Shown here: piece by piece, positions 34,101 to 49,693 of the stretch
How the letters are laid out: each line of letters begins with the position of its first letter
How positions within the stretch are numbered: position 1 is the first letter of the stretch
Assembly (NCBI GenBank): GCA_017429945.1
Contig: JAFRNY010000043.1
Coordinates: 1 to 64,000, forward strand
DNA: 64,000 bases
Reading direction: 5' to 3'
Origin: Bacteroidaceae bacterium
GTDB lineage: Bacteria > Bacteroidota > Bacteroidia > Bacteroidales > Bacteroidaceae
Notes under the pieces: generated by a model
What the model saw: only the letters and a program-made list of their open reading frames with translations
What the model was told of the DNA's origin: nothing
The model's database searches: none
Translations under genes and position numbers: made by a program

Positions 34101-37100
34101 GCGTCGACGGCACCATCTGTGCTAAGGATGGCAAGGTCATCGAGACGAACGAGATGGGCGAGTACACCATCAGCGTCCCCATCGGCAACCACTTCATCAC
34201 CGTCAGCAAGAACGGGCATGTCTTTGCCAACGACGGGCGCTATCCCGCCGACCCGGCTGATACCGGGCTTAAGAAGAACTTCAAATCCGCTGTCACCAAC
34301 CTCGATTTCTCTGACGAGACACTGGTGAACTTCACCGGACGTGTGGTCGGCGGCGACATTCAGGGCGAGAAAGCCGTGGGCTTCGGACTGAGCACCAACA
34401 ACATCGGTGTCGCCCAGCTCGTATTGTCGCCACAAGACGACCGCTTCCGCTTGAACGTAAGCAAGGAGGAAGGCGAGGCTACTTTCAGCTACGAGAACAA
34501 CAAGGATAAAGTCGACGTAGCCTCTGCAACGGAGATTATCGCCAGCACATCCTACCGCAAGGGCGGCACGACGATGATCGACTGCCAGAAAATCATCATC
34601 AATACTGACCCCGCCACGGGTGAGTTCTCGGCTATGCTACCACCGTTGCAGTACACCGTGGAGAGCATCAAGCTGGTGAATGGCGGTGCGAAGGTGGGCG
34701 AACCGACGACCATCGACCTGACCAACCCGCTCATCGAATACAGCGACACCTTGCATCGCGACAACGGCTCCGATGTAGTGTATTCGTACAACACGATGCT
34801 GCGGAACACCTACCATAGCGAACCTACGTTCACAGTGAAACAGCAGGGTCGCGAGGACGGCTCCTTCGGCATCAGCAGCTATAAGTTCACCGACGACATT
34901 GGCGAAGTGGAAGTCTCTGACATCTACACCGTGGCTGACGGCAAGGTGACTTACAACTACGGTGTCGAAGGCTTCAAGTCGCCACTCTTCGTGAAGGAAG
35001 ATCCTTACACCTTCCTCTTGGAGGGCTACGAGGAATACGTCAATGCCGACAACGGCGAGACTGACCATGTGCCCCTCGTCGGCAACACCGTCACCGTCAA
35101 CAACGCCCTCTCAGGCGAGCAGAGCGTATACATCGAGGACAACGGCGGTCACAAGGCTGGCGAGGTCGTTGAGATGGTCGACAACCAGTTGGAGCTCGAC
35201 AGTCTCGGACGAGCCACCTACATCTGGCGCGCCGGCTATCCCAACATCGCAGAGCCTTACACCCGCACCATCTCCATGACCTATGAGGTGGGCGGAGCCT
35301 TCAAACAGTGGGACGGCAACGGCATGACGGGCATCATCATCGGCGACCTGCCAACAGGCAACAACTTCGTGACGGCTGGCCCCGACCATCCCACCATGAT
35401 CCTACGCGACCCGCCCGGAACCAATTCTTTCGCCGAGTGGACAAGCGGCAGCAGCCACACACGGTCGGAAGTGCGCGGCAACACCGTGACGCAGAACAAT
35501 TCAGTGGCCTTCAAGCACAAGTTCGGCTTCGGAAAGTCTATCGTTGCAGGCTCTATGGTTCTGGCAGCGGTGACCAGCATAGAGCAGGCCAACGACCTGG
35601 AGATCGGTGCCAAGATGGAGTCGGAGTATGAGAGCTCCAACACTGTGAACACCACGACCACGACCACAAAGACCATCAGCACGTCGGCAGCTCCCGAGTA
35701 TGTCGGCGCGCAGGGCGACGTGTTCATAGGCAACTCCACGAACATCATCTTTGGCAAGTCGCGCAACATCGGCTTCAAGCGTTCTTCAGGCAACAATTTC
35801 GAGTTAGGTCTGGAAGACATGATCAGCACCGGCATGGAGTTCGGCACTATGTTCATGTACACGCAAAACTACATCGAGAATGTAATGCTGCCCAACTACG
35901 AGCTGATGCGTCGTAACTTCCTTGTTACCACCACACAGGACAAAATCAACAGCTATAAGAATGACACGGGTCACACCGTCTACCTCACCACGCTCAGCCC
36001 AGACGATAAGAAGTTCGGCACCGAAGGCACCTATGTGGTGAAGAAGGCTGCGGAAGCTGCCGAGGACTCCGTGCTGTGGATTAACACGCAGATAGAGAAC
36101 TGGCAGAACATTCTGGCCGAGAACGAGAAGGCGAAGGTGAAAGCCCACGAGCGTTCCGAGAAGTACCTCATTCAGGGTAATATCTCGTTCGACAGCGGCA
36201 CCATCTACAACTATTCGCACGAGTCTTCACGCGACAGCACCCATACCTCCGAGTGGAAGGTAGCCGCAGGTTTGTATGTCGACGACCTCTTCGGCTTGAG
36301 TGTTGATCAGTTCGGCTTCGAAATCCACGTCACCGACGAGACTATGGGCGGCCGTCATGAGAGCGACGGCGACCAGTATGTCGACAACACCGTGTTCGGC
36401 TTCACCTTGGCCGAAGATGGCGACGACGATGCCTTGACGGTAGATGTATACGACTATATGGACGGCTTCGGCCCAATCTTCCGCACCCGCGGCGGACAGA
36501 CCTGCTGCCCGTATGAAGGCAAGACGGTGACAAAGTACTACGAGCCAGGCACCACCATCATGGAAGCTACCATGCAGATTGAGGTGCCGCAAATCGACGT
36601 CGACGTGCCCATCGTCAGCGACATCCCCACTGGCACGTCAGCCAACTACACTCTCCGCCTCAGCAATGCTTCGGAGATTGACGAAGACGTCTACTACCGC
36701 CTCATAGTAGCCGACGAGACCAACCCCAACGGCGCAGCACTCAGCATCGACGGCAAGGCCGTCACCGACAGCCGCGTCATTAAGATTCCTGCCGGCGAGA
36801 CCATCACCAAGGCACTGCAGCTCAAGCAGACCAACGTCGGCATCCTCGACTACGATAGGATCGCCGTCGTGCTCGCATCGCAGTGCCAGTACGACCCGAC
36901 CAGCACGTGGGACGTCATCACCGACACGGTATTTATCTCAGCTCACTTCGTGCCCTCATCATCGACTGTCGACCTGGCACTCTCAAACACGCTGATGAAC
37001 ACCGAGACGGGCACAGACCTCCGCCTTACCTTCTCCAACTTCGACCGCACCTACCGCGGACTGAAGGCCTTCCGCCTCCAGTATAAGAAGCAAGGCGCCA

Positions 37101-40100
37101 CCGACTGGACACTCTTCCACGAGTACGTCCTCGACAAGAACGCCGTGACCACCAACAACGAGCTGCTGCCCGCTACCGGAGGAAGCGTAAGCTACACGCT
37201 GCCCATGAACAACTTCACCGACGGCGACTACCTCTTCCGCGTGCTCTCAGTAAGCACCTACGGCACAGGTGAGACCGTGTACTCGAGTAAAGAAATACCT
37301 CTCGTGAAGGATATGCAGCGCCCCGTGCCCCTCGGACTGCCCGAACCATCCGACGGCATCCTCTCGCCGGGCGACGAGATCAGCATCACCTTCAACGAGG
37401 ACATCATCAAGGGAGCCCTCACCAAGACTGCTAACTTCAAGGTAACAGGCGTATTGAACGGAGCCGAGATAGACCACGAGACAGCCCTCCGCACTACCGG
37501 AGGCACGCAGGCCGCCGCACAGACCGAGGCCGACATCTCGCTGGCCGAGCGCGACTTCTCCATCGACGCTTGGGTGAACCTCAGCGGCCAAGGCGAAATC
37601 ATCAGCCACGGCAACGCTAGCTCAAAGATGGTCGTAGCCACCGACGCCGACAATCACCTCACCGTAGACTTCGCAGGCACCACCTACACCTCTACTGACG
37701 CCGTGCCTACCGACACCTGGGCCTTCCTCTCGCTCAGCTATCAGCACACCGATGCCGGAGGCGAGATAAGCGCCGCCGTAGCCACCGACGACCAGACCAT
37801 CAGGCTGTTCAGCGGCAAATCAGTAGTAAACTACGAAGGCAACGGCCCCATCGCCGTAGGCCGCAACCTCTCAGGCGCAATGCACGAGCTGCTGCTCTGG
37901 GATGAGGCCCACGATATAACCACTGCCCTGCTCAACCGCTCCAAGAGCAAGAGCCCTGCCACACGTCACCTCATTGGCTACTGGAAGATGAACGAGGGCG
38001 AGGGCACGCTCGTCACCGACTACGCCCGCGACCGCCACATGACCATGCCTGCCGAGACCTGGTATCTCAACAACGAGAACAAGGCCGTAGAGCTCAGCGG
38101 CGACAACTACATCACCACTGAGACAGGCGACCTCCAGTTGTTCCCCGAGGACGACTACGCCATAGAATTCTGGATGCGCGGCAGCGAACAGGCCGAGGCT
38201 CAGCTGCTGCAGATGGGTGAGGTTGCCCTATGGACCGACGCCAAAGGCAAGCTGCAGCTTACCGCCAAGGGCGCTTACAACGAGGCTGAAGGCACGGTGC
38301 TCTCCACCTCTAGCGCTTCAATCCTCGACAACGCCTGGCACCACATCGCACTTAACGTGCTCCGTAAGGGTGCAGCAGCCGTGTATGTCGATGGCGCACG
38401 AGTGCTAACTACTAATGCTGCCAACGTTGGCACCCTCGCCACCGACCACCTCTTCATAGGCGCACGACGCACTACCATCAGCTCAGGTGCCGACTACACC
38501 TACGACCGCGCCTTTAAAGGCCAGATTGACGAGCTCCGCATCTGGGGCGCATCTTTGAACGCCGACCTGCTCTCCAAGCAACGCAAACAACGACTCACAG
38601 GCACAGAGGACGGCCTCCAGCTCTACTTCCCATTCGAGAAGAAAAAGCTCGACGAGTACAACCAGGTTGTAACCGAAGGTTACCCGACCGACCTCGTCGG
38701 CACAGGCCACGAAGCCCAACTCTCAACCCTCAGCTCTCAACTCTCAACTCTCAACTACTCCGACGAGGCTCCAGCCCTGCGCACCAAGCCCGCCGAGACC
38801 AACGTAGGCTTCACCTTCACGGCCTCCGACACCAAGATAGTGCTCGACATCGACGAGGATGCTGCCGCCATCGAAGGCTGCACGCTCACCTTCACCGTGC
38901 GCGACGTCAGCGACAAGAACGGCAACTACTCGCTGCCTGCCGTATGGTCGGCCTACATCAACCGCAACGAGCTCGTATGGAAAGAATCCACGCTCAACAT
39001 CGTACAGCCCGCCAACACCGCCACAAGCTTCAATGTGGCCATCGTCAACAAGGGCGGACAGCAGCAGATGTGGACCATAAGCGGTATGCCAGCATGGCTC
39101 AGCGTCAGTGCCTCACAGGGCAACGTGGCAGCGCTCTCCGAGGCCAACGTCAACTTCACCGTTGGCGAGACGGCACCCATCGGCAAGTACGAAGTCACCG
39201 TCTACCTCGAAGGCAACAGCGGCATTGAGACGCCACTGACACTCTACATCATCGTCGAAGGCGACAAGCCCGACTGGACCATCGATGGCTCTGGCTACGA
39301 GAGCACCATGAACGTCATCGCCATGCTCGACTTCGCAGGCACACCCTGCGACGATGCCGACGACATGGTGGCAGCTTTCATAGGCGACGAGTGCCGGGGC
39401 GTAGGCTACGCTCAGTACAACAGCCGCTACGACAGCTACTTCATCCTGCTCAACATCTATGGCAACCCTGAGGACGACCAGCAGCCCGTGACGCTACGCG
39501 CCTACGACGCATCGACAGGCATCGTCTACTCCTTCGTAACGAGCACGCCCGAGCTCGTCTTCTCGCAAAACAAGGTCGTAGGGACATACGCCGAACCCGT
39601 ACGCATATCCACCAGCGACCTCCTCGAGCAGACCATAGCACTGGGCAAGGGGTGGAACTGGATGTCTGTTCAGCTGACAGCCGACGACATGACCGTTCCC
39701 GCCATCTTCAGCTCCGTGGCTCTCAAGACGAACATTGTCAAGAGCAAGGAAACGTTCATGGAGCAGTGGGACGGCCAGTGGTACCCCACCGACGTGCTCA
39801 TACTGAATAACCGCGAGATGTATATGGTGCAGATGACCGAGCCGCAGACTCTCTCCATCGCTGGACACGCCGTCGACCTCAAGCAGGAGACTATCAAGGC
39901 AGCACCTGGATGGAACTGGATAGGATACCCCGGAACCAAGATAATCAGCATAGCCGACGCCTTCGCAGGCATGGAACCGCGCGACGGCGATGTCGTCAAG
40001 AGCCAGAGCGCCTTCGCCATGTACGACGGCTACGAATGGAACGGCACTCTTGGAGCACTCATCCCAGGCGAGGGCTACATGCTACGCAACACAGCCTCCG

Positions 40101-40636
40101 TGGCGCGCTCCTTCACCTACCCAACGGCCACGGCCTCAGCCATACGCAAGGCTCCCGTACGCCGCATAACCACAGCCTTTTCACCCATTGACCACCACAC
40201 CTACAGCGGCAATATGAACATCGTAGCCCTCGTGACCATCGACGGACAACCGCTCGCCAACGGAGAAATAGCTGTCTTCGCAGGCGAAGAATGCCGCTCA
40301 GCAACTCTAACCGATGACGAAGGAATGGCATACATAACCGTGCCGGGAGAAGACGCCACAGAGCTCACCTTCAGGACCTACTGCCAAGGTGTGCTCATAA
40401 GCTCCAAGCAACAATGCACCTATGCCAACAATGGCGTACTAGGCTCACACCGATTACCGCTTGCAGTAGCCTTCTTTGAAGAAGACGCCACGGCTGTTAA
40501 CGCTACCACAGACCGCGCCGAGGACACCATATACGACCTCGCAGGCCGCAAACTCGAAAACAGCCACACTGCTAAGCGGTCGCTGCAGCAAGGCATATAC
40601 ATCGTTAATGGCAAGAAGATGGCTGTAAAGCGATAA
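31145..40636 (+). CDS. Giant secreted multidomain surface protein (3163 residues)
   Basis: A very large exported protein. The signal peptide ends near residue 31 (GGSSPTKA). Recognisable parts: fibronectin III-like domains (about 426-515 and 525-615), a LamG-like domain (about 663-862), a carboxypeptidase-regulatory-like beta domain (about 961-1030), an unassigned central region (about 1100-2000) that includes a Thr run (about 1503-1515) and a GGQTCCPYEGK site, two more LamG-like domains (about 2106-2260 and 2304-2506), a BACON/Ig-like region (about 2617-2711), repeated modules with GKGWNWMSVQL and APGWNWIGYPG, and the tail YDLAGRK...LQQGIYIVNGKK shared with three secreted proteins here. No catalytic motif is seen. 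Adhesion or glycan binding on the cell surface is likely. Residues about 2525-2541 come from a CTCTCAA repeat. It appears co-transcribed with the 75-residue gene. Confidence 0.88.
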   Translation: MEHNHYRTKRRWLVPLLLLACFFGGSSPTKAATREFNNCPESNIIAHNPTLDQPYLAFHVMFYDETKSHNGFFLHKSPNGVPEGETAGPALFVNGQYICTPDYELAWPGNSNTGNDSGAKKACENDSWWANTYTRKVDGVNYTVKFYNPYNEGGSKRKVVYCFVFMDKVEISKSYTVTISGYWKINNTHDGQLQSNTWTFSKGTMGVSSPTAEMTEYGKMKISGNLKVDYGPTTVGSNRGATTSGLAITDDLTSKASYPKGNSTFSDQIVDFSERDDYYNSVNKYIEYIIPINDFTPSGFNAMDKKLNINVYQWYVTSVPGYIRPKSFSIASTNLWTKEVKFTWSYEGNNKGGTWSIFRYPTEVGEKGRADALETVVSNLTYGTGSYTATVPSYDKDYTYELAFIPTSGEQRKELTSSLKLKLSRDWSFSNFTATTDEDKINLAWNHTAIGNASGSNSYSLEVQRSEDGANFTTIKTIPITSTSTNDGTYSDNSGLEANHTYYYRLKINVLDIDIFSSIISTKLGGSKIIDFKASRGTYSGMVKLQWTVKQVGSNTTNFIIQRRPLNSNDERTWADIHSTSGTASGYSYDDVEAKPGSFYEYKVIIWSQDGTARSIDDTRTIDGFSISTGVVSGRVTYGTGAAVEGAKVTLKRQSEDGSVASGMHSVKLSGYGAGMRYPADNDELKSLLSDNFSIQMYLNPNSNVMNSNGSEYRILDVEWAVTISARYDKANDRYKLCGYFGGSGFETENLYLPAGQWSHLTMVHNHDAQTLTMYLTTELGQQSEVVATERVIDWSKSGNADCLAIGNVGQFTAKTWFDGYLDEFRYFTKVLTETEIQRNFNHPLAGNEANLAIYYPFDEGLTTQNLAYDFSKSGDVSNGRHAVTKVPAASSTFIPSEEQLSLMAYTDTVGNYVIRGVPFSGEGINYSVIPTKDIHEFSPSSQSRFVSQSSLIHSGVDFEDVSSFPVSGTVYYAGTDYPVEGATFSVDGTICAKDGKVIETNEMGEYTISVPIGNHFITVSKNGHVFANDGRYPADPADTGLKKNFKSAVTNLDFSDETLVNFTGRVVGGDIQGEKAVGFGLSTNNIGVAQLVLSPQDDRFRLNVSKEEGEATFSYENNKDKVDVASATEIIASTSYRKGGTTMIDCQKIIINTDPATGEFSAMLPPLQYTVESIKLVNGGAKVGEPTTIDLTNPLIEYSDTLHRDNGSDVVYSYNTMLRNTYHSEPTFTVKQQGREDGSFGISSYKFTDDIGEVEVSDIYTVADGKVTYNYGVEGFKSPLFVKEDPYTFLLEGYEEYVNADNGETDHVPLVGNTVTVNNALSGEQSVYIEDNGGHKAGEVVEMVDNQLELDSLGRATYIWRAGYPNIAEPYTRTISMTYEVGGAFKQWDGNGMTGIIIGDLPTGNNFVTAGPDHPTMILRDPPGTNSFAEWTSGSSHTRSEVRGNTVTQNNSVAFKHKFGFGKSIVAGSMVLAAVTSIEQANDLEIGAKMESEYESSNTVNTTTTTTKTISTSAAPEYVGAQGDVFIGNSTNIIFGKSRNIGFKRSSGNNFELGLEDMISTGMEFGTMFMYTQNYIENVMLPNYELMRRNFLVTTTQDKINSYKNDTGHTVYLTTLSPDDKKFGTEGTYVVKKAAEAAEDSVLWINTQIENWQNILAENEKAKVKAHERSEKYLIQGNISFDSGTIYNYSHESSRDSTHTSEWKVAAGLYVDDLFGLSVDQFGFEIHVTDETMGGRHESDGDQYVDNTVFGFTLAEDGDDDALTVDVYDYMDGFGPIFRTRGGQTCCPYEGKTVTKYYEPGTTIMEATMQIEVPQIDVDVPIVSDIPTGTSANYTLRLSNASEIDEDVYYRLIVADETNPNGAALSIDGKAVTDSRVIKIPAGETITKALQLKQTNVGILDYDRIAVVLASQCQYDPTSTWDVITDTVFISAHFVPSSSTVDLALSNTLMNTETGTDLRLTFSNFDRTYRGLKAFRLQYKKQGATDWTLFHEYVLDKNAVTTNNELLPATGGSVSYTLPMNNFTDGDYLFRVLSVSTYGTGETVYSSKEIPLVKDMQRPVPLGLPEPSDGILSPGDEISITFNEDIIKGALTKTANFKVTGVLNGAEIDHETALRTTGGTQAAAQTEADISLAERDFSIDAWVNLSGQGEIISHGNASSKMVVATDADNHLTVDFAGTTYTSTDAVPTDTWAFLSLSYQHTDAGGEISAAVATDDQTIRLFSGKSVVNYEGNGPIAVGRNLSGAMHELLLWDEAHDITTALLNRSKSKSPATRHLIGYWKMNEGEGTLVTDYARDRHMTMPAETWYLNNENKAVELSGDNYITTETGDLQLFPEDDYAIEFWMRGSEQAEAQLLQMGEVALWTDAKGKLQLTAKGAYNEAEGTVLSTSSASILDNAWHHIALNVLRKGAAAVYVDGARVLTTNAANVGTLATDHLFIGARRTTISSGADYTYDRAFKGQIDELRIWGASLNADLLSKQRKQRLTGTEDGLQLYFPFEKKKLDEYNQVVTEGYPTDLVGTGHEAQLSTLSSQLSTLNYSDEAPALRTKPAETNVGFTFTASDTKIVLDIDEDAAAIEGCTLTFTVRDVSDKNGNYSLPAVWSAYINRNELVWKESTLNIVQPANTATSFNVAIVNKGGQQQMWTISGMPAWLSVSASQGNVAALSEANVNFTVGETAPIGKYEVTVYLEGNSGIETPLTLYIIVEGDKPDWTIDGSGYESTMNVIAMLDFAGTPCDDADDMVAAFIGDECRGVGYAQYNSRYDSYFILLNIYGNPEDDQQPVTLRAYDASTGIVYSFVTSTPELVFSQNKVVGTYAEPVRISTSDLLEQTIALGKGWNWMSVQLTADDMTVPAIFSSVALKTNIVKSKETFMEQWDGQWYPTDVLILNNREMYMVQMTEPQTLSIAGHAVDLKQETIKAAPGWNWIGYPGTKIISIADAFAGMEPRDGDVVKSQSAFAMYDGYEWNGTLGALIPGEGYMLRNTASVARSFTYPTATASAIRKAPVRRITTAFSPIDHHTYSGNMNIVALVTIDGQPLANGEIAVFAGEECRSATLTDDEGMAYITVPGEDATELTFRTYCQGVLISSKQQCTYANNGVLGSHRLPLAVAFFEEDATAVNATTDRAEDTIYDLAGRKLENSHTAKRSLQQGIYIVNGKKMAVKR
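38717..38757. repeat. In-frame CTCTCAA repeat in the giant gene
   Basis: Five or six near-identical CTCTCAA/CCTCAG units of 7-8 bases code for LSTLSSQLSTLN between the third LamG-like domain and the next module. Confidence 0.8.
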
Positions 40637-40689
40637 GTACTTGATCATCTTTACTTTCATTATTGAGTCCACTTTAAAAAAGCCCTGTG

Positions 40690-40736
40690 CTCTACCTTCG
40701 GTCGCTTGACATTTCAAGAAGCGACCAAAGGTCGAG
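40690..40736. terminator. Convergent hairpin after the giant gene and carAB
   Basis: CTCTACCTTCGGTCGCTT pairs with AAGCGACCAAAGGTCGAG (two mismatches), with an inner CTTG/CAAG. It lies between two convergent genes and has no long T-run. Confidence 0.55.
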
Positions 40737-40747
40737 CGAAAGAAGTT

Positions 40748-40820
40748 GGGAAGTTAAAGGAGTTAAGAACTTCTTTAACTTCCTTAATTTCTTTACCCCC
40801 CCTTAACATTTTTAACTTCC
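40748..40820. repeat. GGAAGTTAAAG inverted and direct repeats
   Basis: GGGAAGTTAAAGG, then AGTTAAG, TTTAACTTCC, CCTTAA and TTTAACTTCCC: the same family as 16197-16370. The first and third units can pair into a 11-12-bp stem. Confidence 0.75.
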
Positions 40821-40840
40821 CGCTTCTGAGCCCGGATCAA

Positions 40841-43702
40841 TTATAAGTATGAGAGATAGAGGTAGTTGGTAGCGGCAGGATATTCTGCGGCGAGGGTGTC
40901 TATCTGACTGACGGTGGGCACGACGCCCGTCTCCTTTCGCCACTGCCTGACGGTAAGCGCCGATGCCTCTGGACTCATGTAGTTCTCAAGCCCCAATGCA
41001 CGGGCTATCTGGAAGTCGGAGAAGCCGTAAACCTTAGCCTCGCGCAGCAGACTGACGAACGAGGGCTCCTCTACGAGTTCCAGCAACTCGGAGGGCTCCA
41101 TGACGGCGGTCATCTCTGCAAGAAAAGCTTGCTGACTGAGCCGTTCGTTGATGTCGACAATATGGCGCAGCTTGTGCAAGAACCAGCGGTCGATGCGCGT
41201 CCAACGATGTATCTGCCCGACGCTGTAGCCCATCATCAAAGCCTTGGCAATGACGAAGATGCGCGTGTCCGTGGCGTGTTGCAAGGTCTCGGGGACGTCC
41301 CACACATGCTGTGCCCTGTTGTCCACAAAGCCGTGCATACCCTGCCCTATCATACGAAGACCTTTCTGGATGGCCTCCTCAAACGAGCGCCCGATGGCCA
41401 TCACCTCGCCCACGCTCTTCATCGACGAGCCCAGCTCATGGTTCACGCCGTGGAACTTTGAAAGATCCCAGCGCGGCAACTTGCAGACGACATAGTCAAG
41501 TGCTGGTTCAAAGAAGGCGCTGGTGGTTTTCGTAACCGAATTTTTCAAGTCAAAGAGACCATAGCCAAGTCCGAGCTTAGCAGCCACGAACGCCAGGGGA
41601 TAGCCTGTAGCTTTGGAGGCTAAGGCGGAGGAACGCGAGAGGCGGGCGTTGACCTCGATGACGCGATAGTCCTCGGAGTCGGGGTCGAGGGCATACTGTA
41701 CATTGCATTCGCCCACGATGCCGATATGTCGTATTATCTTTATGGCAAGGGCACGTAGCTTGTGGTATTCGCTGTTGGTGAGCGTCTGCGAGGGAGCCAC
41801 GACGATCGACTCTCCGGTGTGAATGCCCAGCGGGTCGAAGTTTTCCATATTGCAGACGGTGATGCAGTTGTCGTAGCGGTCGCGCACAACCTCATATTCT
41901 ATCTCTTTCCAACCTTTCAGCGACTTCTCCACCAGCACCTGCGAGGAGAACGAGAAAGCTTCCTCTGCCTGCGCCAGCAGCTCCTCGTCATTGTCGCAGA
42001 AGCCCGAGCCAAGGCCGCCGAGGGCGTATGCGGCACGCAGGATAACAGGGAAGCCCAGTTCGCGGGCAGCCCTCTGCACTTTCTCCACGGTTCCGCAAGC
42101 CATGCTCTTGATGGTCTTCACACCAATCTCGTCGAGTCGCTTCACGAAGAGGTCGCGGTCCTCGGTATCGATGATGGCTTGCACAGGAGTGCCCAGGAAG
42201 CTTACACCATACTTCTCGAATACGCCTCTCCTGTAGAGCTCCACGCCGCAGTTCAGCGCCGTCTGTCCGCCGAAGGAGAGCAGAATGCCATCGGGGCGCT
42301 CTTTTTCTATGACACGCTCCACGAACTCGGGCGTCACGGGCTGAAAATAGACGGTGTCCGCTACGTCCTTGGAGGTCTGGACCGTGGCAATATTGGGGTT
42401 GATGAGGATGGAACGGATGCCCTCTTCCTTCAACGCCTTCAGCGCCTGGGCGCCGCTGTAGTCAAACTCGCCGGCCTGCCCGATCTTGAGAGCACCGCTG
42501 CCGAGGAGGAGGACGGATTTTATAGTTGACGAGTTTACGAGTTGACAAGTTGACGAGTTGTTAGCATTTTCATCCAACTTGTTTACTTGTCCACTTGTCA
42601 ACTCGTCAACTAAAGAGACGAACTCATCAAACATCCATTCCGTGTCGGTAGGGCCGGAGCAGGCTTCGGGATGGAACTGTGCGGAGAACCAGGGCAGGGT
42701 CTTGTGGCGGATGCCCTCGTTGGAGCCGTCGTTCATGTTCACAAACAAAGGTTCCCAGTCGGCAGGAAGCGTAGAGGCATTGACGGCATAGCCGTGATTC
42801 TGGCTCGTGATGAAGCAACGGGTGGTGCCTACGAGCCGCACGGGCTGGTTATGACTGCGATGACCGTACTTCAGCTTGTACGTCTTAGCACCTACGGCAC
42901 GTGCCAGGAGCTGGTTGCCGAGGCAGATGCCCATGAGCGGGCGGACATTCGGTCTGTCAAGGAAAGTGCGTATGTGCTCCACGGTCTTGCTGCATCGCTC
43001 TGGGTCGCCAGGGCCATTCGCCAGGAACAAGCCATCGAAGTCCAGCTGGTTGAAGTCGTAGTCCCACGGAACCCGGATGACCTCTACGCCCCGATCTACC
43101 AGACAACGGATGATATTGGCCTTGACGCCGCAGTCGACCAGTACGACCCGCTTGCCGGCTCCCTCGTTATAGCGGATGACATCCTTGCAGCTCACCTGCT
43201 CGACCCAATTGACCGAGCCATAATCAGAGAGTTCGGAGTAATCTGAAGACTCTGAATAATCTGAATAATCTGAATGCTCAGAAACTATGATGCGGCCTTT
43301 CATCACGCCGCACTCCCTAATCCGCTGGGTGAGCCTTCGCGTGTCGATGCCCGTGATGGCTGGCACCTTCTCTCGCTTCAGCCAATCGGAGAGCGACTCC
43401 TTGGAATTCCAGTGGCTGTACTTCTCGCTATAATCTGCCACGACAAGGCCCTTGACGTGAATGTGCTCGCTTTCCATAAATTTAGGCAAAGGCTCGCCTC
43501 CTGTCTCAGGAACGCCGTAGTTCCCGATCAGCGGGTACGTCGTCACCAGTATCTGACCTGCATAGCTTGGGTCAGTCAGGCTCTCTGGATAGCCTGTCAT
43601 GGCTGTGTTGAACACCACTTCGCCCACGGCATCTGCTTCGTAGCCAAAGCTCTTGCCGTGAAACTGAGTTCCATCACTCAATATCAATATTGCGTCCTTC
43701 AT
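40841..43702 (-). CDS. carAB: Carbamoyl-phosphate synthase: CarA fused to the N-terminal half of CarB
   Basis: A 953-residue fusion. Residues 1-363 are the glutaminase subunit CarA (ILSDGTQFHGKSFGY at the start; nucleophile Cys260 in GICLGNQ; FHPEA carrying the catalytic His and Glu). Residues about 364-394 are a repeat-encoded linker. Residues about 395-953 match only the first half of CarB: the carboxyphosphate ATP-grasp domain (SGALKIGQAGEFDYSGAQAL, ALGGLGSGF, IEVNARLSRSSALASKATG) and the oligomerisation domain, ending at QIDTLAAEYPAATNYLYLSYL. Full-length CarB (about 1070 residues) would continue there with the carbamate kinase-like ATP-grasp and the allosteric domain; neither is in this window. 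The enzyme supplies carbamoyl phosphate for pyrimidines and arginine. Residues about 141-161 form a second repeat-encoded insert (SDYSDYSESSDYSE). It is last in a leftward nitrogen gene cluster. Confidence 0.9.
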   Translation of the reverse strand: MKDAILILSDGTQFHGKSFGYEADAVGEVVFNTAMTGYPESLTDPSYAGQILVTTYPLIGNYGVPETGGEPLPKFMESEHIHVKGLVVADYSEKYSHWNSKESLSDWLKREKVPAITGIDTRRLTQRIRECGVMKGRIIVSEHSDYSDYSESSDYSELSDYGSVNWVEQVSCKDVIRYNEGAGKRVVLVDCGVKANIIRCLVDRGVEVIRVPWDYDFNQLDFDGLFLANGPGDPERCSKTVEHIRTFLDRPNVRPLMGICLGNQLLARAVGAKTYKLKYGHRSHNQPVRLVGTTRCFITSQNHGYAVNASTLPADWEPLFVNMNDGSNEGIRHKTLPWFSAQFHPEACSGPTDTEWMFDEFVSLVDELTSGQVNKLDENANNSSTCQLVNSSTIKSVLLLGSGALKIGQAGEFDYSGAQALKALKEEGIRSILINPNIATVQTSKDVADTVYFQPVTPEFVERVIEKERPDGILLSFGGQTALNCGVELYRRGVFEKYGVSFLGTPVQAIIDTEDRDLFVKRLDEIGVKTIKSMACGTVEKVQRAARELGFPVILRAAYALGGLGSGFCDNDEELLAQAEEAFSFSSQVLVEKSLKGWKEIEYEVVRDRYDNCITVCNMENFDPLGIHTGESIVVAPSQTLTNSEYHKLRALAIKIIRHIGIVGECNVQYALDPDSEDYRVIEVNARLSRSSALASKATGYPLAFVAAKLGLGYGLFDLKNSVTKTTSAFFEPALDYVVCKLPRWDLSKFHGVNHELGSSMKSVGEVMAIGRSFEEAIQKGLRMIGQGMHGFVDNRAQHVWDVPETLQHATDTRIFVIAKALMMGYSVGQIHRWTRIDRWFLHKLRHIVDINERLSQQAFLAEMTAVMEPSELLELVEEPSFVSLLREAKVYGFSDFQIARALGLENYMSPEASALTVRQWRKETGVVPTVSQIDTLAAEYPAATNYLYLSYL
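42523..42612. repeat. GTTGACGAG/ACTTGTCAAC repeats in the CarA-CarB linker
   Basis: Units of GTTGAC(G/A)AGTT on one side and ACTTGTCAACTCGTCAAC on the other form an imperfect inverted repeat. They encode the linker between CarA and CarB (QVNKLDENANNSSTCQLVN). A related TTGACTTGTCAACTAG run lies at 11757-11790. Confidence 0.85.
43221..43282. repeat. In-frame TCTGAATAA repeat inside CarA
   Basis: Units of 9 bases (AATCTGAAT/AGACTCTGA/AGTTCGGAG) code for S-D-Y-S-E-type repeats at residues about 141-161 of the fusion protein. Confidence 0.85.
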
Positions 43703-43758: not shown

Positions 43759-45423
43759 TCAATAAGCCTGTTCGTGAACACCTTTGACGGCACGCCCGCT
43801 GGGGTCGTTCATGCTCCTGAAAGCCGCGTCCCACTCGAGTGCGATGGCCGTGGAGCACGCCACGCTGGCCTCCTGGTTTACGCTTCGCGCTGCTGAGTCG
43901 CTGGGGAAATGCTCAGCGAAGATGCTGCGGTAGTAGTACTCCTCTTTATTGAGCGGCGGATTGATGGGAAAACGCTCTGCCGCGTGTGCCATCTGCTCGT
44001 CGCTAACGGCCTCGGAGGTTATCCGCTTCAACGTGTCGATCCACGAATAGCCTACGCCGTCGCTGAACTGTTCCTTTTGCCGCCAAACAATCTCCGCAGG
44101 CAACATATCGGCAAAGGCTTCGCGGAGGATGCGCTTCTCTATCATCGAGCCGGAACACATCTTGGCTTCGGGATTGGTCCTCATGGCCACGTCGAGGAAC
44201 TCCTTGTCGAGGAACGGCACACGCCCTTCGACGCCCCAGGCCGAGAGGCTCTTGTTCGCCCGCAGGCAGTCGTAGTAGTGCAGCTTGCTGAGCTTGCGCA
44301 CGGTCTCTTCGTGGAAAGCCTTTGCGCTCGGAGACTTGTGGAAATAGAGATAGCCGCCGAACACCTCGTCGGCGCCCTCGCCCGAGAGCACCATCTTGAT
44401 GCCCATCGACTTGATGACACGCGCCAGCAGGTACATCGGCGTGGAGGCACGAACAGTCGTCACGTCGTAGGTCTCGATGAAATAAATAACGTCGCGGATG
44501 GCATCAAGACCCTCTTGTATGGTGTAGTTGATCTCGTGATGTACGGTGCCGATGTGGTCGGCCACGAGGCGCGCCTTCGCCAGGTCGGGCGCTCCCTTCA
44601 GTCCCACGGCGAAACTGTGGAGGCGAGGCCAGTAGGCGCGCGACTGCGAGTCATCCTCGATGCGATGCTCACTGAACTGCTCCGCAATGGCAGAGATGAC
44701 AGAAGAATCCAGTCCGCCGCTGAGCAGCACGCCGTAGGGCACGTCGGACATCAGCTGGCGCTTCACCGAGGCCATGAGCGCTAGGCGAATGGCGGCGCTG
44801 CTGGCAGCGTTGTCTTTGACGGCAGCGTAGTCGAACCAGTCGCGCTGGTAATATCGCTTCATGCCAAGCTCGCCGCTCCAATAATAGTGCCCAGGCAGGA
44901 AAGGCTCATAGCGCTCACATTGGCCTTCGAGCGCCTTCAGCTCGGAGGCCACGTACACCGTGCCGTCGCTGTCGTAACCTATATATAAGGGTATCACGCC
45001 GATGGGGTCGCGGGCTATCAGGAACTCGTCCCGCTCCTCATCATAGAGGGCGAAGGCAAAGATGCCGCTGATGTCCTCCAGGAAGCGGATGCCCTTGTCG
45101 CGATAGAGTGCAAGGATGACCTCGCAGTCGCTGCCCGTCTGGAAGTCGTAGCGACCTGCATACTGGCGGCGAATCTCCTGATGATTGTAGATCTCGCCAT
45201 TGACGGCCAGCACCAGCTTCCTGTCGGGCGAGAACAGCGGCTGACCACCGCTCTCGGGGTCCACGATGGAGAGACGTTCGTGGCCCAGGATGGCCGACCC
45301 GCCACAATAGATGCCGCTCCAGTCCGGGCCGCGATGACGAATTTTCTGGCTCATGCGCAGAGCCTTACGCCGTAGCTCGGTAGTCTGCTGCTTAATGTTG
45401 AAGATTGATACGATACCACACAT
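43759..45423 (-). CDS. asnB: Asparagine synthase (glutamine-hydrolysing)
   Basis: Makes asparagine from aspartate, glutamine and ATP. 554 residues, the AsnB length. The class II glutaminase domain starts MCGIVSIF, with Cys2 as nucleophile after loss of Met, and shows RHRGPDWSGIY and NGEIYNHQEIRRQY. The synthetase domain has the PP-loop LSGGLDSSVIS (about 232-242), GEGADEVFGGYLYFH and the C-terminal part with KEQFSDGVGYSWID. It lies between purF and carAB on the minus strand; short repeats of the GTAAATA/TTGAACA type fill the gaps on both sides. Cytoplasmic. Confidence 0.97.
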   Translation of the reverse strand: MCGIVSIFNIKQQTTELRRKALRMSQKIRHRGPDWSGIYCGGSAILGHERLSIVDPESGGQPLFSPDRKLVLAVNGEIYNHQEIRRQYAGRYDFQTGSDCEVILALYRDKGIRFLEDISGIFAFALYDEERDEFLIARDPIGVIPLYIGYDSDGTVYVASELKALEGQCERYEPFLPGHYYWSGELGMKRYYQRDWFDYAAVKDNAASSAAIRLALMASVKRQLMSDVPYGVLLSGGLDSSVISAIAEQFSEHRIEDDSQSRAYWPRLHSFAVGLKGAPDLAKARLVADHIGTVHHEINYTIQEGLDAIRDVIYFIETYDVTTVRASTPMYLLARVIKSMGIKMVLSGEGADEVFGGYLYFHKSPSAKAFHEETVRKLSKLHYYDCLRANKSLSAWGVEGRVPFLDKEFLDVAMRTNPEAKMCSGSMIEKRILREAFADMLPAEIVWRQKEQFSDGVGYSWIDTLKRITSEAVSDEQMAHAAERFPINPPLNKEEYYYRSIFAEHFPSDSAARSVNQEASVACSTAIALEWDAAFRSMNDPSGRAVKGVHEQAY

Positions 45424-45424
45424 A

Positions 45425-45500
45425 ATGTTATTTACTATTTAACGATTTACTATTGAACATTGAACATTGAACATTGACCATTTAACATTATCCATTGTCC
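45425..45500. repeat. TTGAACA/GTTTACTATT simple repeats, overlapping the end of purF
   Basis: TTTACTATTTAACGATTTACTA, then three TTGAACA units, then ATTATCCATTGTCCAT. The last part contains the purF stop codon. The complementary motif ATGGACAATG occurs at the end of gltD (57723 onward). Related GTAAATAGTAAAT runs lie at 43720-43757. Confidence 0.85.
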
Positions 45501-47245
45501 ATCTCATTCTCTATATATTCCACAAAGGCCTTGTTCACGAGGCGCGTGCCACCTGGCGTGGGGTAATGTCCCGTGAAATACCAGTCGCCACGATGCTCGG
45601 GGCAGGCGGCATGCAAGCCCTCGATGGTCTGAAAGACGAACTCCACGGGTGCCTGCATCCCTGCCGGACGCAGCATCTCGGCCATCTTACGGTTGATGTC
45701 CCCTACGGTGAACGGTTCGTAGATGGCACAGACGCAGTTCCGCTGCTCTCCTTTTGGTTTCGTCAGCTCTGACTTGCAGCCGCGGTACGTGGCTTCAATG
45801 AGCGAATCCATATCGCGTTCCCGCAACAGCGCTATGGCGGCACGGAAAGCACAGAACTCCTCCAGCCGTGCCATGTCGATCCCGTAGTAGTCAGGATAAC
45901 GGATCTGTGGCGAGCTGCTGACCATGACTATTTTCCTCGGATGCAGGCGGTCCAGAATCTTGAAGATGCTCTCCCGCAGAGTGGTGCCCCGGACGATGCT
46001 GTCGTCGATGATGACGAGGCTGTCTTCGTATGGACGCAGCGAGCCGTAGGTGATGTCATAGACGTGCGAGGCGAGGTCGTTGCGTGAGCCCGCCTCAGTG
46101 ATGAAGGTGCGTAGCTTGATGTCCTTCCACGCCACTTTCTCGCTTCGCACATGAAGCCCCCTGCCCCGCAAGCCCTCCATCATTCCGTAGAAGGCAACCT
46201 CGGCCGTGTTGGGAATAAAGGAGAAGACGGTGTGTTCGGTATCTCCGCCGATGGCACGGAGTATGGGTTCCGTGAGCTGCTGCCCCAGCTGCTTGCGCTC
46301 ACGGTAAATATCCCGGTCAGAACCGCGGCTGAAGTAGATGCGCTCGAACGAGCATCGCGCCTGCCGCCGTGCCTCCAAGATGTTCTCCAACGCCGACGTG
46401 CCGTCCCTGTGTACGATGAGCGCTTGGCCTGCAGGCAGTTCACGGACATCGTCGCAGGAGAGGTCGAAGGTCGTCTGCAGCACGGCACGTTCGCTGGCCA
46501 CGGCCACCACCTCGTCGTCACGATAGAAAAAGGCGGGACGGATGCCCCAAGGGTCGCGCATGGCAAACATCTCGCCGCTGCCCGTCATGCCGCACATGAC
46601 GTAGCCACCGTCGTAATCGGCCATCGTGGTGCGAAGCACATTGGCCATCTGCACGTGCTCCTCAATGTAGCGCGTGATGTCGGTGCCTTCCAGCCCGTTG
46701 GCCTTTGCCTCGACATACAGGCGTTCCACCTCGCGGTCCAACCGGTGCCCCATCAGTTCGAGGGTGATGTAGGAGTCGCTGTAGATGCGAGGCGACTGCC
46801 CCTGCGCCACCATCTTCTCGAACACCTCGTCGATGTTCGTCATGTTGAAGTTGCCGCAAAGACACAGGTTCTTGGCCCGCCAGTTGTTGCGGCGCAGGAA
46901 GGGATGGACATACTGCAGGCCGCTCTTGCCCGTCGTGCTGTAGCGAAGGTGGCCCATGTAGAGTTGTGCCTTGGCCCATTCGGGTGTGATGACGTCAAAG
47001 ACCGAGGTGATGGCATCCTTGCCCAGGGCCTTCTCGCGGAACATATACTCCGTCCCCACTTCGGCATTCATGTCCACGCAGGCTATGCCAGCCCCTTCCT
47101 GTCCTCGGTTATGTTGCTTCTCCATCATCAGATAGAGCTTGCCGAGGCCGTAGGACGCAGTGCCATACTTCTCTTTATAGTAGCTCTGCGGCTTAAGAAG
47201 CCTCACCAAGGCCACACCGCATTCATGCTTCAACTGTTCCACCAT
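45488..47245 (-). CDS. purF: Amidophosphoribosyltransferase (long Bacteroidetes form)
   Basis: Catalyses the first step of purine synthesis, moving the glutamine amide to PRPP. 585 residues, about 100 longer than E. coli PurF. The glutaminase part starts MVEQLKHECGVA, so Cys9 would be the nucleophile after removal of a short propeptide, and shows GHLRYSTTGKSG and CGNFNMTN. The phosphoribosyltransferase part has the PRPP motif LVIIDDSIVRGTT (about 408-420). The extra C-terminal part (about 480-585) is unassigned. Bacteroidetes often carry this long form besides a shorter PurF, so it may be a paralog with a related role. The last codons (MDNG) and the stop lie inside a simple repeat. Confidence 0.87.
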   Translation of the reverse strand: MVEQLKHECGVALVRLLKPQSYYKEKYGTASYGLGKLYLMMEKQHNRGQEGAGIACVDMNAEVGTEYMFREKALGKDAITSVFDVITPEWAKAQLYMGHLRYSTTGKSGLQYVHPFLRRNNWRAKNLCLCGNFNMTNIDEVFEKMVAQGQSPRIYSDSYITLELMGHRLDREVERLYVEAKANGLEGTDITRYIEEHVQMANVLRTTMADYDGGYVMCGMTGSGEMFAMRDPWGIRPAFFYRDDEVVAVASERAVLQTTFDLSCDDVRELPAGQALIVHRDGTSALENILEARRQARCSFERIYFSRGSDRDIYRERKQLGQQLTEPILRAIGGDTEHTVFSFIPNTAEVAFYGMMEGLRGRGLHVRSEKVAWKDIKLRTFITEAGSRNDLASHVYDITYGSLRPYEDSLVIIDDSIVRGTTLRESIFKILDRLHPRKIVMVSSSPQIRYPDYYGIDMARLEEFCAFRAAIALLRERDMDSLIEATYRGCKSELTKPKGEQRNCVCAIYEPFTVGDINRKMAEMLRPAGMQAPVEFVFQTIEGLHAACPEHRGDWYFTGHYPTPGGTRLVNKAFVEYIENEMDNG

Positions 47246-47246
47246 C

Positions 47247-47357
47247 TCAATTTACGATTTGACGATTTTACGATTTACGATTTATCTAACCTCTCGTTGG
47301 GTGAGGGAGCCTTGCCCTGAACCTGTTAACCTGTTAATATGTTAATGTGTTAATGTG
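47247..47357. repeat. ACGATTT and TTAAC simple repeats around the pyrG 3' end
   Basis: TTTACGATTT units lie at 47250-47285. At 47320-47357, read on the minus strand, TTAACACA, TTAACATA, TTAACAGG, TTAACAGG form an 8-bp array that codes for the pyrG C-terminus (INTLTY) and supplies its stop codon. The same 8-bp pattern lies at 59988-60067. Confidence 0.85.
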
Positions 47358-48941
47358 TTTCACGAACGACATAAACAGCGGATGCGGGCTGAGCACGGTG
47401 GACGAATATTCGGGGTGGAACTGCGTGCCGATGTACCAACTATGAGTAGGCATCTCCACGATCTCGACAAGGCCTGTGCCGGGATTGATGCCCACGCACT
47501 TCATACCTGCTGCCTCATATTCCTCTTTATACTGGTTGTTGAACTCATAGCGGTGCCGGTGACGCTCGCTGATCTCTGTCGCACCGCCGTATGCCTCGCT
47601 GGCACGACTTCCTTCTCTGAGCAGGCAATCGTATGCACCCAGTCGCATGGTGCCACCCATCTGCGTGATGCTTTTCTGCTCTTCCATGAGGTCAATGACG
47701 CCGGCAGCGGCGTCGGGATTCATCTCCGTGCTGTTGGCATCTTTGTAGCCGAGGACGTTTCGCGCGAACTCTACCACCATCATCTGCATACCGAGGCAGA
47801 TGCCGAATGTCGGGATGTCGTGAGTGCGAGTGTACTCGGCTGCGATAATCTTTCCCTCGATGCCACGTTGCCCGAAGCCCGGGCAGATGATGATGCCTGC
47901 CATGCCGTCCAGCCTTTCCGCCACGTTTCCCTCGGTTATCTCTTCACTGCTGATGAAGTGTAGCTTCACCTTTACATTATTATAAACACCCGCCAGGTTC
48001 AGGCTCTCGCGGATGCTCTTGTAGGCATCTTGAAGGTCGTATTTCCCGACCAGACCTATATGTAACTCGCGGGTAGCACAACGCTGTTTTTCAAGGAAGT
48101 CGTGCCAAGGTGCCATGGCGGGTGTCTCGCCGACGGGTATGCCTGTCTTGCGCAGGATGGCGGCGTCGAGGCCTTGACGCTGCATGCTGACCGGCACCTC
48201 GTAGATGCTTGCCAGATCCTCGCTCTGCACCACACATTCCAGGTTGACATTGCAGAACGAAGCCACCTTCATGCGTAATGCGTCGTCGAGGTGGCGCTCG
48301 GTGCGCAGCACAAGGATGTCGGGCTGGATGCCCATGCCTTGCAGTTCCTTGACGGAGTGTTGGGTGGGCTTCGTCTTCAATTCATCGGCTGCCTTCAGGT
48401 AGGGAACGTATGTCAGGTGCACACAAACGGCATTGCGGCCCAACTGCCATCGAAGCTGACGGATAGCTTCCATAAACGGCGCGCTCTCTATGTCGCCGAT
48501 GGTGCCGCCCACCTCTGTGATAACGAAATCCAGTTCCTCTTCCGTTACATCTTCTCGCAGCATCCTTCGCTTTATCTCGTCCGTGATGTGTGGCACCACC
48601 TGGATGGTCTTGCCCAGGTAGTCGCCACGACGCTCGCGGTCGATGACAGCCTTGTAGATGCGCCCCGTCGTGATGCTGTTGTGACGTGTGGTATGTATGC
48701 CCGTGAAGCGCTCGTAGTGGCCGAGATCCAAGTCCGTCTCCATGCCGTCGGCCGTGACGTAGCACTCGCCATGCTCGTATGGGTTCAGCGTTCCCGGGTC
48801 GATGTTGATGTAAGGGTCGAACTTCTGGATAGTGACCTTGTAGCCACGTGCCTGCAGCAGCTTGCCGATGCTCGCGGCTATGATGCCCTTTCCGAGCGAG
48901 GAAACCACGCCGCCTGTCACGAAGATGTACTTTGTATTCAT
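47334..48941 (-). CDS. pyrG: CTP synthase
   Basis: Converts UTP to CTP using glutamine and ATP. 535 residues from the ATG at 48941 (MNTKYIFVTGGVVSSLGKG), the standard family start; the open frame extends 22 codons further but without family similarity. The amidoligase domain (about 1-270) contains GGVVSSLGKGI, KFDPYINIDPGTLNPYEHGECYVTADG and ETDLDLGHYERF. The class I glutaminase domain (about 290-530) has GICLGMQ with the catalytic Cys and QFHPEY with the catalytic His/Glu. It follows the outer-membrane protein gene at 62 bases and belongs to the leftward nitrogen cluster. Confidence 0.96.
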   Translation of the reverse strand: MNTKYIFVTGGVVSSLGKGIIAASIGKLLQARGYKVTIQKFDPYINIDPGTLNPYEHGECYVTADGMETDLDLGHYERFTGIHTTRHNSITTGRIYKAVIDRERRGDYLGKTIQVVPHITDEIKRRMLREDVTEEELDFVITEVGGTIGDIESAPFMEAIRQLRWQLGRNAVCVHLTYVPYLKAADELKTKPTQHSVKELQGMGIQPDILVLRTERHLDDALRMKVASFCNVNLECVVQSEDLASIYEVPVSMQRQGLDAAILRKTGIPVGETPAMAPWHDFLEKQRCATRELHIGLVGKYDLQDAYKSIRESLNLAGVYNNVKVKLHFISSEEITEGNVAERLDGMAGIIICPGFGQRGIEGKIIAAEYTRTHDIPTFGICLGMQMMVVEFARNVLGYKDANSTEMNPDAAAGVIDLMEEQKSITQMGGTMRLGAYDCLLREGSRASEAYGGATEISERHRHRYEFNNQYKEEYEAAGMKCVGINPGTGLVEIVEMPTHSWYIGTQFHPEYSSTVLSPHPLFMSFVKHINTLTY

Positions 48942-49003
48942 AACTGTTTTCTTTGCTTGATGATGATGCAGCAATTGCTTTATCATGATGAAGCAACCGA
49001 TAA

Positions 49004-49693
49004 TCATAGGGAGAATGAGGCGCCCAACAGGAGATAGAGCTTCTCAGACCTGGGGTTGGCGGTCAGTCCAACAAATAGAGGAAGGTGATACCTCTCTTTG
49101 ATGACGAAGTCCTTGGTGGCACGTAGACTCACGTTGGTTACGCAGAAGCCGTTGGCGCCATAGAGTGTCGTGGCATAGGGCACGGCACCGAGCGTGGCCG
49201 TCCAGTCGAAGTTTCCCAGACGGAAAGGCGCCGACAGCTCCAAGTAGCTGCTGTAGGCTCGTTCGCCATCTTTGTTTACGCCGTCATCTCCTGCGAAATT
49301 GGTGTACCACTGCACATTAAGGAAGCCGAAGTCATACCCTAAGTTGGCCTCCCATACGTGTGTAGTCTGATGGGCTTTATATTTGAAATAGCTGCCGTTG
49401 GAAAACCAATAGTCAGTAACGCCGACATTAAAGCCTTCGTAGGCATAGCCGAGTGTCAGGTCCAGTTCCTTGGTATCTCGTGGATCGGTGATTCCAACAC
49501 TGCCCCAGACAGAGAGGCTGAGTCCTTGCCAGCCGATACCCAACGAGGGTTGAAGGCTCGCGTCGCCTAAGTCCTGACCGCGCCAGATGTATTGGCTGAC
49601 GAGGTCGGCGCCAAGACTCGCCTGCAACTTATCTTGAGCTTCTGCTGTAGCCATGCCTGCTACACACAGGAATATGAATAGAATCTTTTTCAT
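49004..49693 (-). CDS. Conserved outer membrane protein (TIGR02001/Gcw_chp-like)
   Basis: A 229-residue protein from the ATG at 49693 (signal peptide MKKILFIFLCVAGMATAEA). The mature part is made of amphipathic beta strands: ASLGADLVSQYIWRGQDLGDASLQPSLG near the start, then repeated aromatic-rich strands, ending in LLLGASFSL, which fits a small beta-barrel with a C-terminal strand. The SADLVSQYIWRG-type start recalls the TIGR02001/Gcw_chp family of unknown function. Its position between amt and pyrG in a nitrogen cluster suggests it may be an outer-membrane channel for a nitrogen compound; this is inference only. Confidence 0.83.
   Translation of the reverse strand: MKKILFIFLCVAGMATAEAQDKLQASLGADLVSQYIWRGQDLGDASLQPSLGIGWQGLSLSVWGSVGITDPRDTKELDLTLGYAYEGFNVGVTDYWFSNGSYFKYKAHQTTHVWEANLGYDFGFLNVQWYTNFAGDDGVNKDGERAYSSYLELSAPFRLGNFDWTATLGAVPYATTLYGANGFCVTNVSLRATKDFVIKERYHLPLFVGLTANPRSEKLYLLLGASFSL

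Follow-up and report, generated by a model that had tools for sequence, protein, structure and literature searches.

Results and Discussion

The 64,000-nucleotide stretch analyzed here (hereafter, the window) comprises positions 1 to 64,000 of contig JAFRNY010000043.1 from the Bacteroidaceae bacterium assembly GCA_017429945.1. On its minus strand, we identified a gene that joins the glutaminase subunit CarA of carbamoyl phosphate synthetase (CPS) to only the first half of the synthetase subunit CarB. We denote the first and second synthetase domains of CarB as CPS.A and CPS.B, and the fusion protein as the half enzyme. The gene and its parts are as follows:

40841..43702, minus strand: half-size CarA-CarB fusion gene, 953 amino acids plus stop codon, ATG start; orthologs share the end residue
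42605..43702, minus strand: CarA (glutaminase) part, residues 1-366 (TIGR01368)
42533..42604, minus strand: linker, residues 367-390, the gap between both family matches
41354..42532, minus strand: CPS.A synthetase domain (pre-ATP-grasp and ATP-grasp), residues 391-783 (PF25596, PF02786)
42476..42478, minus strand: codon of Gln409 in the tunnel loop (E. coli Gln22, human CPS1 Gln437; loop as in PMC4655335)
40844..41353, minus strand: integrating/oligomerization domain, residues 784-953, the C-terminus of the protein (PF02787)

This architecture agrees with the initial annotation, which had described a 953-codon frame where CarA and a linker precede CarB sequence that stops halfway, at a domain boundary, and was silent on the strand. 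The CarA family TIGR01368 matches residues 4-366 with 461 bits (model positions 1-360 of 361), and the CarB family TIGR01369 matches residues 391-952 with 849.6 bits (model positions 3-542 of 1052; cut-off 1027). Pfam recognized CPSase_sm_chain, GATase, CPSase_L_D1, L_D2 and L_D3 in the 953-residue protein, each as a single stretch; no MGS, the allosteric domain that senses uridine monophosphate and ornithine, was detected in it with Pfam, and no CPS.B domain with either Pfam or TIGR01369. When aligned with E. coli CarB, the match stops at residue 547 of 1073, and the carbamate-phosphorylating domain of the E. coli protein spans residues 553-933 (PMC6245113). The length of the linker in 74 half fusions ranges from 1 to 56 residues, with a median of 24.5. 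By eye, the region around the linker (42517-42620) contains repeat-like DNA resembling the intergenic repeats downstream of the gene, and short DNA repeats at 43230-43290 correspond to a Ser-Asp-Tyr repeat inside CarA (residues about 142-162).

Distribution, origin and selection

We examined 139 genomes of the genus, assigning classes by hand among the matches listed, with some frames cut by contig ends. The glutamine-dependent CPS of Bacteroidales that consists of CarA and a full CarB, separate or fused, is designated F1. Intact CarA frames in the genus are about 350-400 amino acids long when separate, about 1450-1570 in full fusions and about 935-1103 in half fusions. The half enzyme is present in 56 genomes (unfused in G116 and in broken frames in G122), the full fusion in 18, and separate CarA and CarB in 21; the remaining 44 have none of these and include G152, in which the frame runs off the contig. 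Among the matches listed for these 139 genomes, the half enzyme and F1 never occur together. The half open reading frame (ORF) terminates 0-3 residues past the aligned end in 81 of 81 cases, five loci being duplicates of others.

Three more genera of the family (g36, g38 and g45) also contain the half enzyme. Twelve half loci (L137-L148) are assigned to Prevotella, Prevotellaceae, Bacteroidaceae or Bacteroidales, some of them with goat, sheep or red deer given in their names. In an order-wide sample of 168 genomes, CarA was detected at 1e-70 in 93, with half-size frames in two, the genome of the window (G000) and G607, from another family. The half fusion of G607 (L237, G607:C39:13000-23000) belongs to the same clade as the others and could reflect horizontal transfer or a misbinned contig. 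Two loci carry an unfused half CarB behind a separate CarA gene (L147:5998-8820 and L241:2459-5352); the two frames of L241 overlap, so that a frameshift is possible. Genome G010 contains two different half fusions (L038 and L047), one on a 4.4-kb contig, which might be a paralog or contamination.

In phylogenetic trees, the CPS.A domains of the half enzymes form a single clade, with support 0.906 for 55 sequences in a first, smaller tree and 1.0 for 76 of 76 in a larger one, in which the stem of the clade measures 0.244; with two sequences added, all 78 still group together (support 1.0). This clade falls inside Bacteroidales F1, and the CPS.A of the window shares about 72-76% identity with the F1 sequences of the genus. 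The sister of the clade is unsure, being the full fusion L186 in the 76-half tree (0.83) versus the separate F1 loci L021 and L109 in the smaller one (1.0). Across 139 close pairs of half enzymes, the ratio of nonsynonymous to synonymous substitution rates (dN/dS), obtained by a simple counting method and including some pairs with high dS, has a median of 0.068 and ranges from 0.019 to 0.130. The half clade is selectively maintained and descends from ordinary Bacteroidales CarAB. A frameshift, an assembly break and decay were ruled out by the shared end point, the low dN/dS and the lack of a downstream remnant; similarly, the sequencing or assembly error considered in the initial annotation, which would rejoin the second half of CarB to this frame, is contradicted by the end point common to all 81 frames and by 55 of 55 loci lacking a second half.

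Search for the second half of CarB

A tblastn search (E 1e-5) with ten CarB second halves as queries detected no such sequence outside the half ORF in the window or in the 54 other half loci tested (55/55); 52 of these 55 hold at least 600 bases downstream. The repeat finder identified one 16-nucleotide repeat family and two inverted repeats at 40600-40900. Together with the negative tblastn result, this bears out the earlier description of the downstream DNA as repeats and a hairpin with no frameshifted remainder. In addition, no stand-alone CPS.B gene was found in genome G000, a draft of 92 contigs that is 82.4% complete.

We searched as well for carbamate kinase as a potential second enzyme. 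None scored over the cut-off in the 139 genomes of the genus, and this candidate was rejected on that basis; weak matches in 77 genomes span only about positions 182-294 of 309.

A second, full-length CarB

Genome G000 encodes one further TIGR01369 match, a full-length CarB that we denote F2 (C92:14551-17751, 1412.9 bits; L001, L055). F2 has both ATP-grasp units and the MGS domain, the latter being present likewise in the F1 proteins tested, and its first half is 59% identical to the CPS.A of the window. In all 24 rows aligned, three of which duplicate a gene, F2 keeps the tested residues in both halves. G000 has a single CarA above the cut-off, the one inside the half fusion, so that F2 lacks a CarA of its own. 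The initial annotation had suggested searching the genome for a separate C-terminal half of CarB or a second full-length CarB, and only the latter was found in the draft; it had also envisaged a full-length carAB elsewhere accompanied by an unexpressed or decayed copy here, and F2 indeed exists, but the half copy is not decayed.

Among the matches listed, F2 is present in 52 of the 56 genomes with the half enzyme, compared with 16 of 39 F1 genomes and 34 of 44 others; the four half genomes without it are 73-80% complete. The Fisher P value for half versus F1 genomes (5.7e-8, uncorrected for kinship) overstates the evidence because the half arose once. Among 17 half genomes of the three other genera, taken from the matches listed, F2 is found in 16, the exception being G405 (63% complete).

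For 34 of the 139 genomes, the listed matches include F2 but no CarA, half enzyme or F1; four of these genomes (G078, G099, G128 and G158) have a further, unlisted CarB match. A second search of ten genomes lacking CarA, with a loose threshold, gave weak matches that lay mostly in the amidotransferase part, none of them near the cut-off, while three half genomes included in this search gave a clear CarA signal. All ten encode a full-length CarB in the F2 score range, and a tree placed those of G171 (a single contig, 99% complete; C1:215429-218590, L243) and G164 in the F2 clade. Transcarbamylases, two in most cases, are encoded in 136 of the 139 genomes, implying that carbamoyl phosphate is needed. 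Given this need and the natural occurrence of F2 without CarA, F2 is probably an independent enzyme that uses ammonia, to which the half enzyme would add a glutamine-dependent route. Because F2 exists, the half enzyme need not be the sole source of carbamoyl phosphate.

Active sites and interface loops

Residues Cys260, His344 and Glu346 of the CarA part align with E. coli Cys269, His353 and what we take to be Glu355, and this glutaminase triad, Cys-His-Glu, is kept in all 71 half CarA sequences aligned. In CPS.A, the residues that we take to be the catalytic R129, R169, E215, H243, Q285, E299, N301, R303, R306, E25 and E383 in E. coli numbering are kept in 76 of 76 half enzymes. The numbering of CarA Cys269 and His353 follows PMC6245113, whereas that of the tunnel glutamates is the human numbering of PMC4655335, transferred by alignment; the tunnel-loop, T-loop and K-loop were taken as defined for human CPS1 in the latter paper.

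In human CPS1, the T-loop owes its order largely to contacts that it makes with the second synthetase domain, at the T'-loop, and both synthetase domains contribute evenly to the carbamate tunnel (PMC4655335). In the half enzymes, 13 of 14 tunnel-loop positions are invariant, compared with 9 in full-length F1, as are 9 of 17 T-loop positions, compared with 4. The ratio of half to F1 entropy is 0.30 for the tunnel-loop, 0.46 for the T-loop and 0.47 for the whole domain, and all nine K-loop positions are invariant in the half enzymes. Judged by these alignments, the interface loops are not relaxed relative to F1, despite the loss of the second domain. This conservation is our main, if indirect, reason for proposing that the place of the second domain would be taken by a partner, in the simplest case another copy of the half enzyme.

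At position 409, Gln is found in 74 of 76 half enzymes and Glu in 114 of 116 full-length F1. As a speculation, the two glutamates that F1-like chains would bring to this position in a symmetric dimer might face each other. Altogether, seven catalytic-domain columns are nearly fixed for different residues in the half enzymes and F1 (window residues 409, 418, 454, 492, 542, 578 and 581), and seven more such columns, including Trp921 (76/76), lie in the integrating domain. A clustering of changes in the tunnel- and T-loops, suggested by 25 columns in 55 half enzymes and 31 F1 of the genus, was dropped because the enrichment was not significant in 76 half enzymes and 116 F1. Convergence of the half enzymes toward CPS.B-like residues was looked for by eye and was not convincing.

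Gene neighborhood

The half gene stands at the end of a cluster of genes on one strand, which encode glutamine amidotransferases and include pyrG, and is followed by a convergent gene:

43759..45423, minus strand: asnB, asparagine synthase B (NF006949, 914.8 bits), 57 bases upstream of the half gene
45488..47245, minus strand: purF-like glutamine amidotransferase (TIGR01134, 155.1 bits, below the cut-off of 350; GATase_6)
47334..49007, minus strand: pyrG, CTP synthase (TIGR00337, 735.2 bits)
40748..40784, plus strand: terminator-like hairpin of 17 pairs, between the half gene and the convergent gene
31145-40636, convergent with the half gene: 3163-residue protein with Laminin_G domains and a CarboxypepD_reg match

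Upstream sequence of 1.5 kb is available for 64 half loci, and 58 of them have asnB, the purF-like gene or pyrG as the immediate upstream neighbor. The purF-like gene or pyrG is upstream in 30 of 84 F1 loci, so that this position is partly common to F1. No PurF over the cut-off was found in the draft genome G000, the best two matches being the protein at 45488-47245 of the window and one at C33. Terminator-like sites in the scanned region do not exceed the shuffled expectation (4 found versus a mean of 6.3).

Possible functions of the half enzyme

We lean slightly toward the view that the gene encodes a natural half-size, glutamine-dependent CPS without CPS.B and MGS. Its ancestry and its first two active sites make the protein a CPS, although one without two defining domains, and it probably works like one. 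From the sequence, we infer its dimerization and catalysis as follows. Glutamine would be hydrolyzed in the CarA part, and the ammonia would reach CPS.A via the usual tunnel, where carbamate would be formed. Two polypeptides would pair via the surface that once met CPS.B, on the old A/B pseudo-dyad, and each CPS.A would accept carbamate made by the other chain and convert it, by phosphorylation, into carbamoyl phosphate. Carbamoyl phosphate could in this way be produced from glutamine free of control by uridine monophosphate (UMP) or ornithine, with F2, which has no CarA of its own, probably supplying it from ammonia. A more specific proposal, which we put forward tentatively as slightly less likely than not, is that a Bacteroidales lineage undid the internal duplication of CarB, giving rise to a symmetric CarA-CPS.A homodimer that would escape UMP/ornithine control and use one ATP-grasp site for both bicarbonate and carbamate phosphorylation; it would work alongside a CarB that has no CarA and presumably uses ammonia. 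The minimal enzyme suggested in the initial annotation, a dimer of fused GATase-CPS.A units, is the best-supported reading; that the fused CarA would be the only one over the cut-off in G000, and that F2 would accompany the half enzyme in nearly all genomes examined, was not foreseen.

Several observations weigh against this reading. The T-loop of the half enzymes is slightly above the domain-average variability (0.192 versus 0.169), as it is in F1, and the columns in which the half enzymes and F1 have different fixed residues show no significant excess in the interface loops (hypergeometric P 0.05-0.44, depending on the threshold). The Glu-to-Gln switch at 409 has exceptions, with Glu in the half enzymes L227 and L228 and Gln in F1 of L231 and L232. 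The conserved loops could face another protein, and one of the 56 half genomes, the abovementioned G122, carries the gene in a broken state. Furthermore, among the genomes searched for both (G607 was not), none that is more than 80% complete has the half enzyme without F2. This speaks against complete replacement of an ordinary CPS by the half enzyme, or in favor of a link to F2: on its own, the half enzyme may not meet the entire demand, or it may need F2. Finally, the natural precedent from Methanobrevibacter smithii (see below) is disputed, in that this protein is argued not to be a CPS and never to group with CarB (PMC11915815).

Alternatively, the half enzyme might be an auxiliary of F2, with the CarA part supplying F2 with ammonia from glutamine, while the CPS.A half acts as a docking or regulatory part of a mixed complex. 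We consider this unlikely but credible, given that F2 of G000 has no CarA and given the frequency of F2 among the listed matches of half genomes, both in the genus (52/56, versus 16/39 for F1) and in the other genera (16/17). However, a docking module would need neither the strong constraint observed nor the tested catalytic residues that every CPS.A retains. Moreover, F2 without any CarA is a natural state in all ten re-checked genomes, the single-contig G171 included, and its own tested residues are intact in both halves.

A new job for the half enzyme, as a glutamine-dependent ligase that forms carbamate or carboxyphosphate for another acceptor while F2 makes all carbamoyl phosphate, appears distinctly improbable. 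F2 evidently can be the only CPS, which would free the other copy, and the long stem and the fixed Gln578, Glu581 and Trp921 (each 76/76) demonstrate remodeling; nevertheless, the K-loop and the tested residues of the ATP/bicarbonate site are unchanged, and the gene still lies beside asnB, the purF-like gene or pyrG.

There is very little to recommend a separate CPS.B gene that supplies the missing half in trans, as in Aquifex aeolicus with its split CPS genes (PMC6022934). The related suggestion in the initial annotation, that the second half is encoded elsewhere, did not hold: no stand-alone second half was found in the draft genome G000, and nine second-half-only fragments looked up in relatives, among the matches listed, all adjoin a contig end. 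An exception is F2 of G035 (L052:2969-6173), which consists of two adjacent frames of 611 and 455 amino acids and could be either a frameshift or a real split gene; since the two pieces adjoin and together give one F2, it is probably a frameshift. As for a pseudogene, sequencing error or assembly break, the origin of all twelve half loci mentioned above from metagenome-assembled genomes or uncultured sources and the broken frames of G122 hardly count beside the common end point (81/81), the median dN/dS of 0.07, the intact frames in four genera and the 55 of 55 loci without a second half outside the ORF, and we practically discount this explanation.

Comparison with known systems

The internal duplication of CarB is held to predate the last universal common ancestor (PMC11915815), and textbooks use CPS to illustrate duplication, fusion and tunneling, with two homologous halves for two chemical steps. 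If our proposal is correct, these gut relatives of Prevotella would demonstrate, for an essential enzyme, that one synthetase domain paired with its own copy suffices to make carbamoyl phosphate. A CarB-derived half under purifying selection in dozens of genomes offers a natural system for asking whether a single site can catalyze both steps, how two identical chains could build a carbamate tunnel between them and what benefit an allosteric domain brings. The full-length CarB model, with its cut-off of 1027 bits, misses the half enzyme. We found no paper on a half-size CarB in Bacteroidales in a search limited to open-licence literature.

Bacteroidales F1 is homologous to the half enzyme along the whole length of the latter and differs from it in having CPS.B and MGS. 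The E. coli CPS halves that were studied alone resemble it in having one synthetase half; these (Guy & Evans 1996, Guy et al. 1997) reportedly were laboratory constructs, not natural genes. The small M. smithii CPS (Popa et al. 2012) is said to have no CarA fused to it. In E. coli CarB, the two halves are functionally equivalent except for regulation, a statement for which PMC6245113 cites these two studies among others. The natural precedent given in a review is the 41-kDa CPS of M. smithii, with a single synthetase domain said to act as a dimer (PMC6022934); this small CPS is argued never to group with CarB (PMC11915815), whereas the half enzyme is plainly CarB-derived. In A. aeolicus, CPS.A is apart from CPS.B, as it is here, but CPS.B and a separate GLN gene are kept (PMC6022934). 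Human CPS1 (PDB 5dot, 6uel) is the best solved match over all 953 residues, a single-chain GATase-CPS with alignable tunnel and T-loops, and differs from the half enzyme in having both synthetase domains, an L4 domain that binds N-acetylglutamate, and Ser in place of the glutaminase Cys (PMC4655335).

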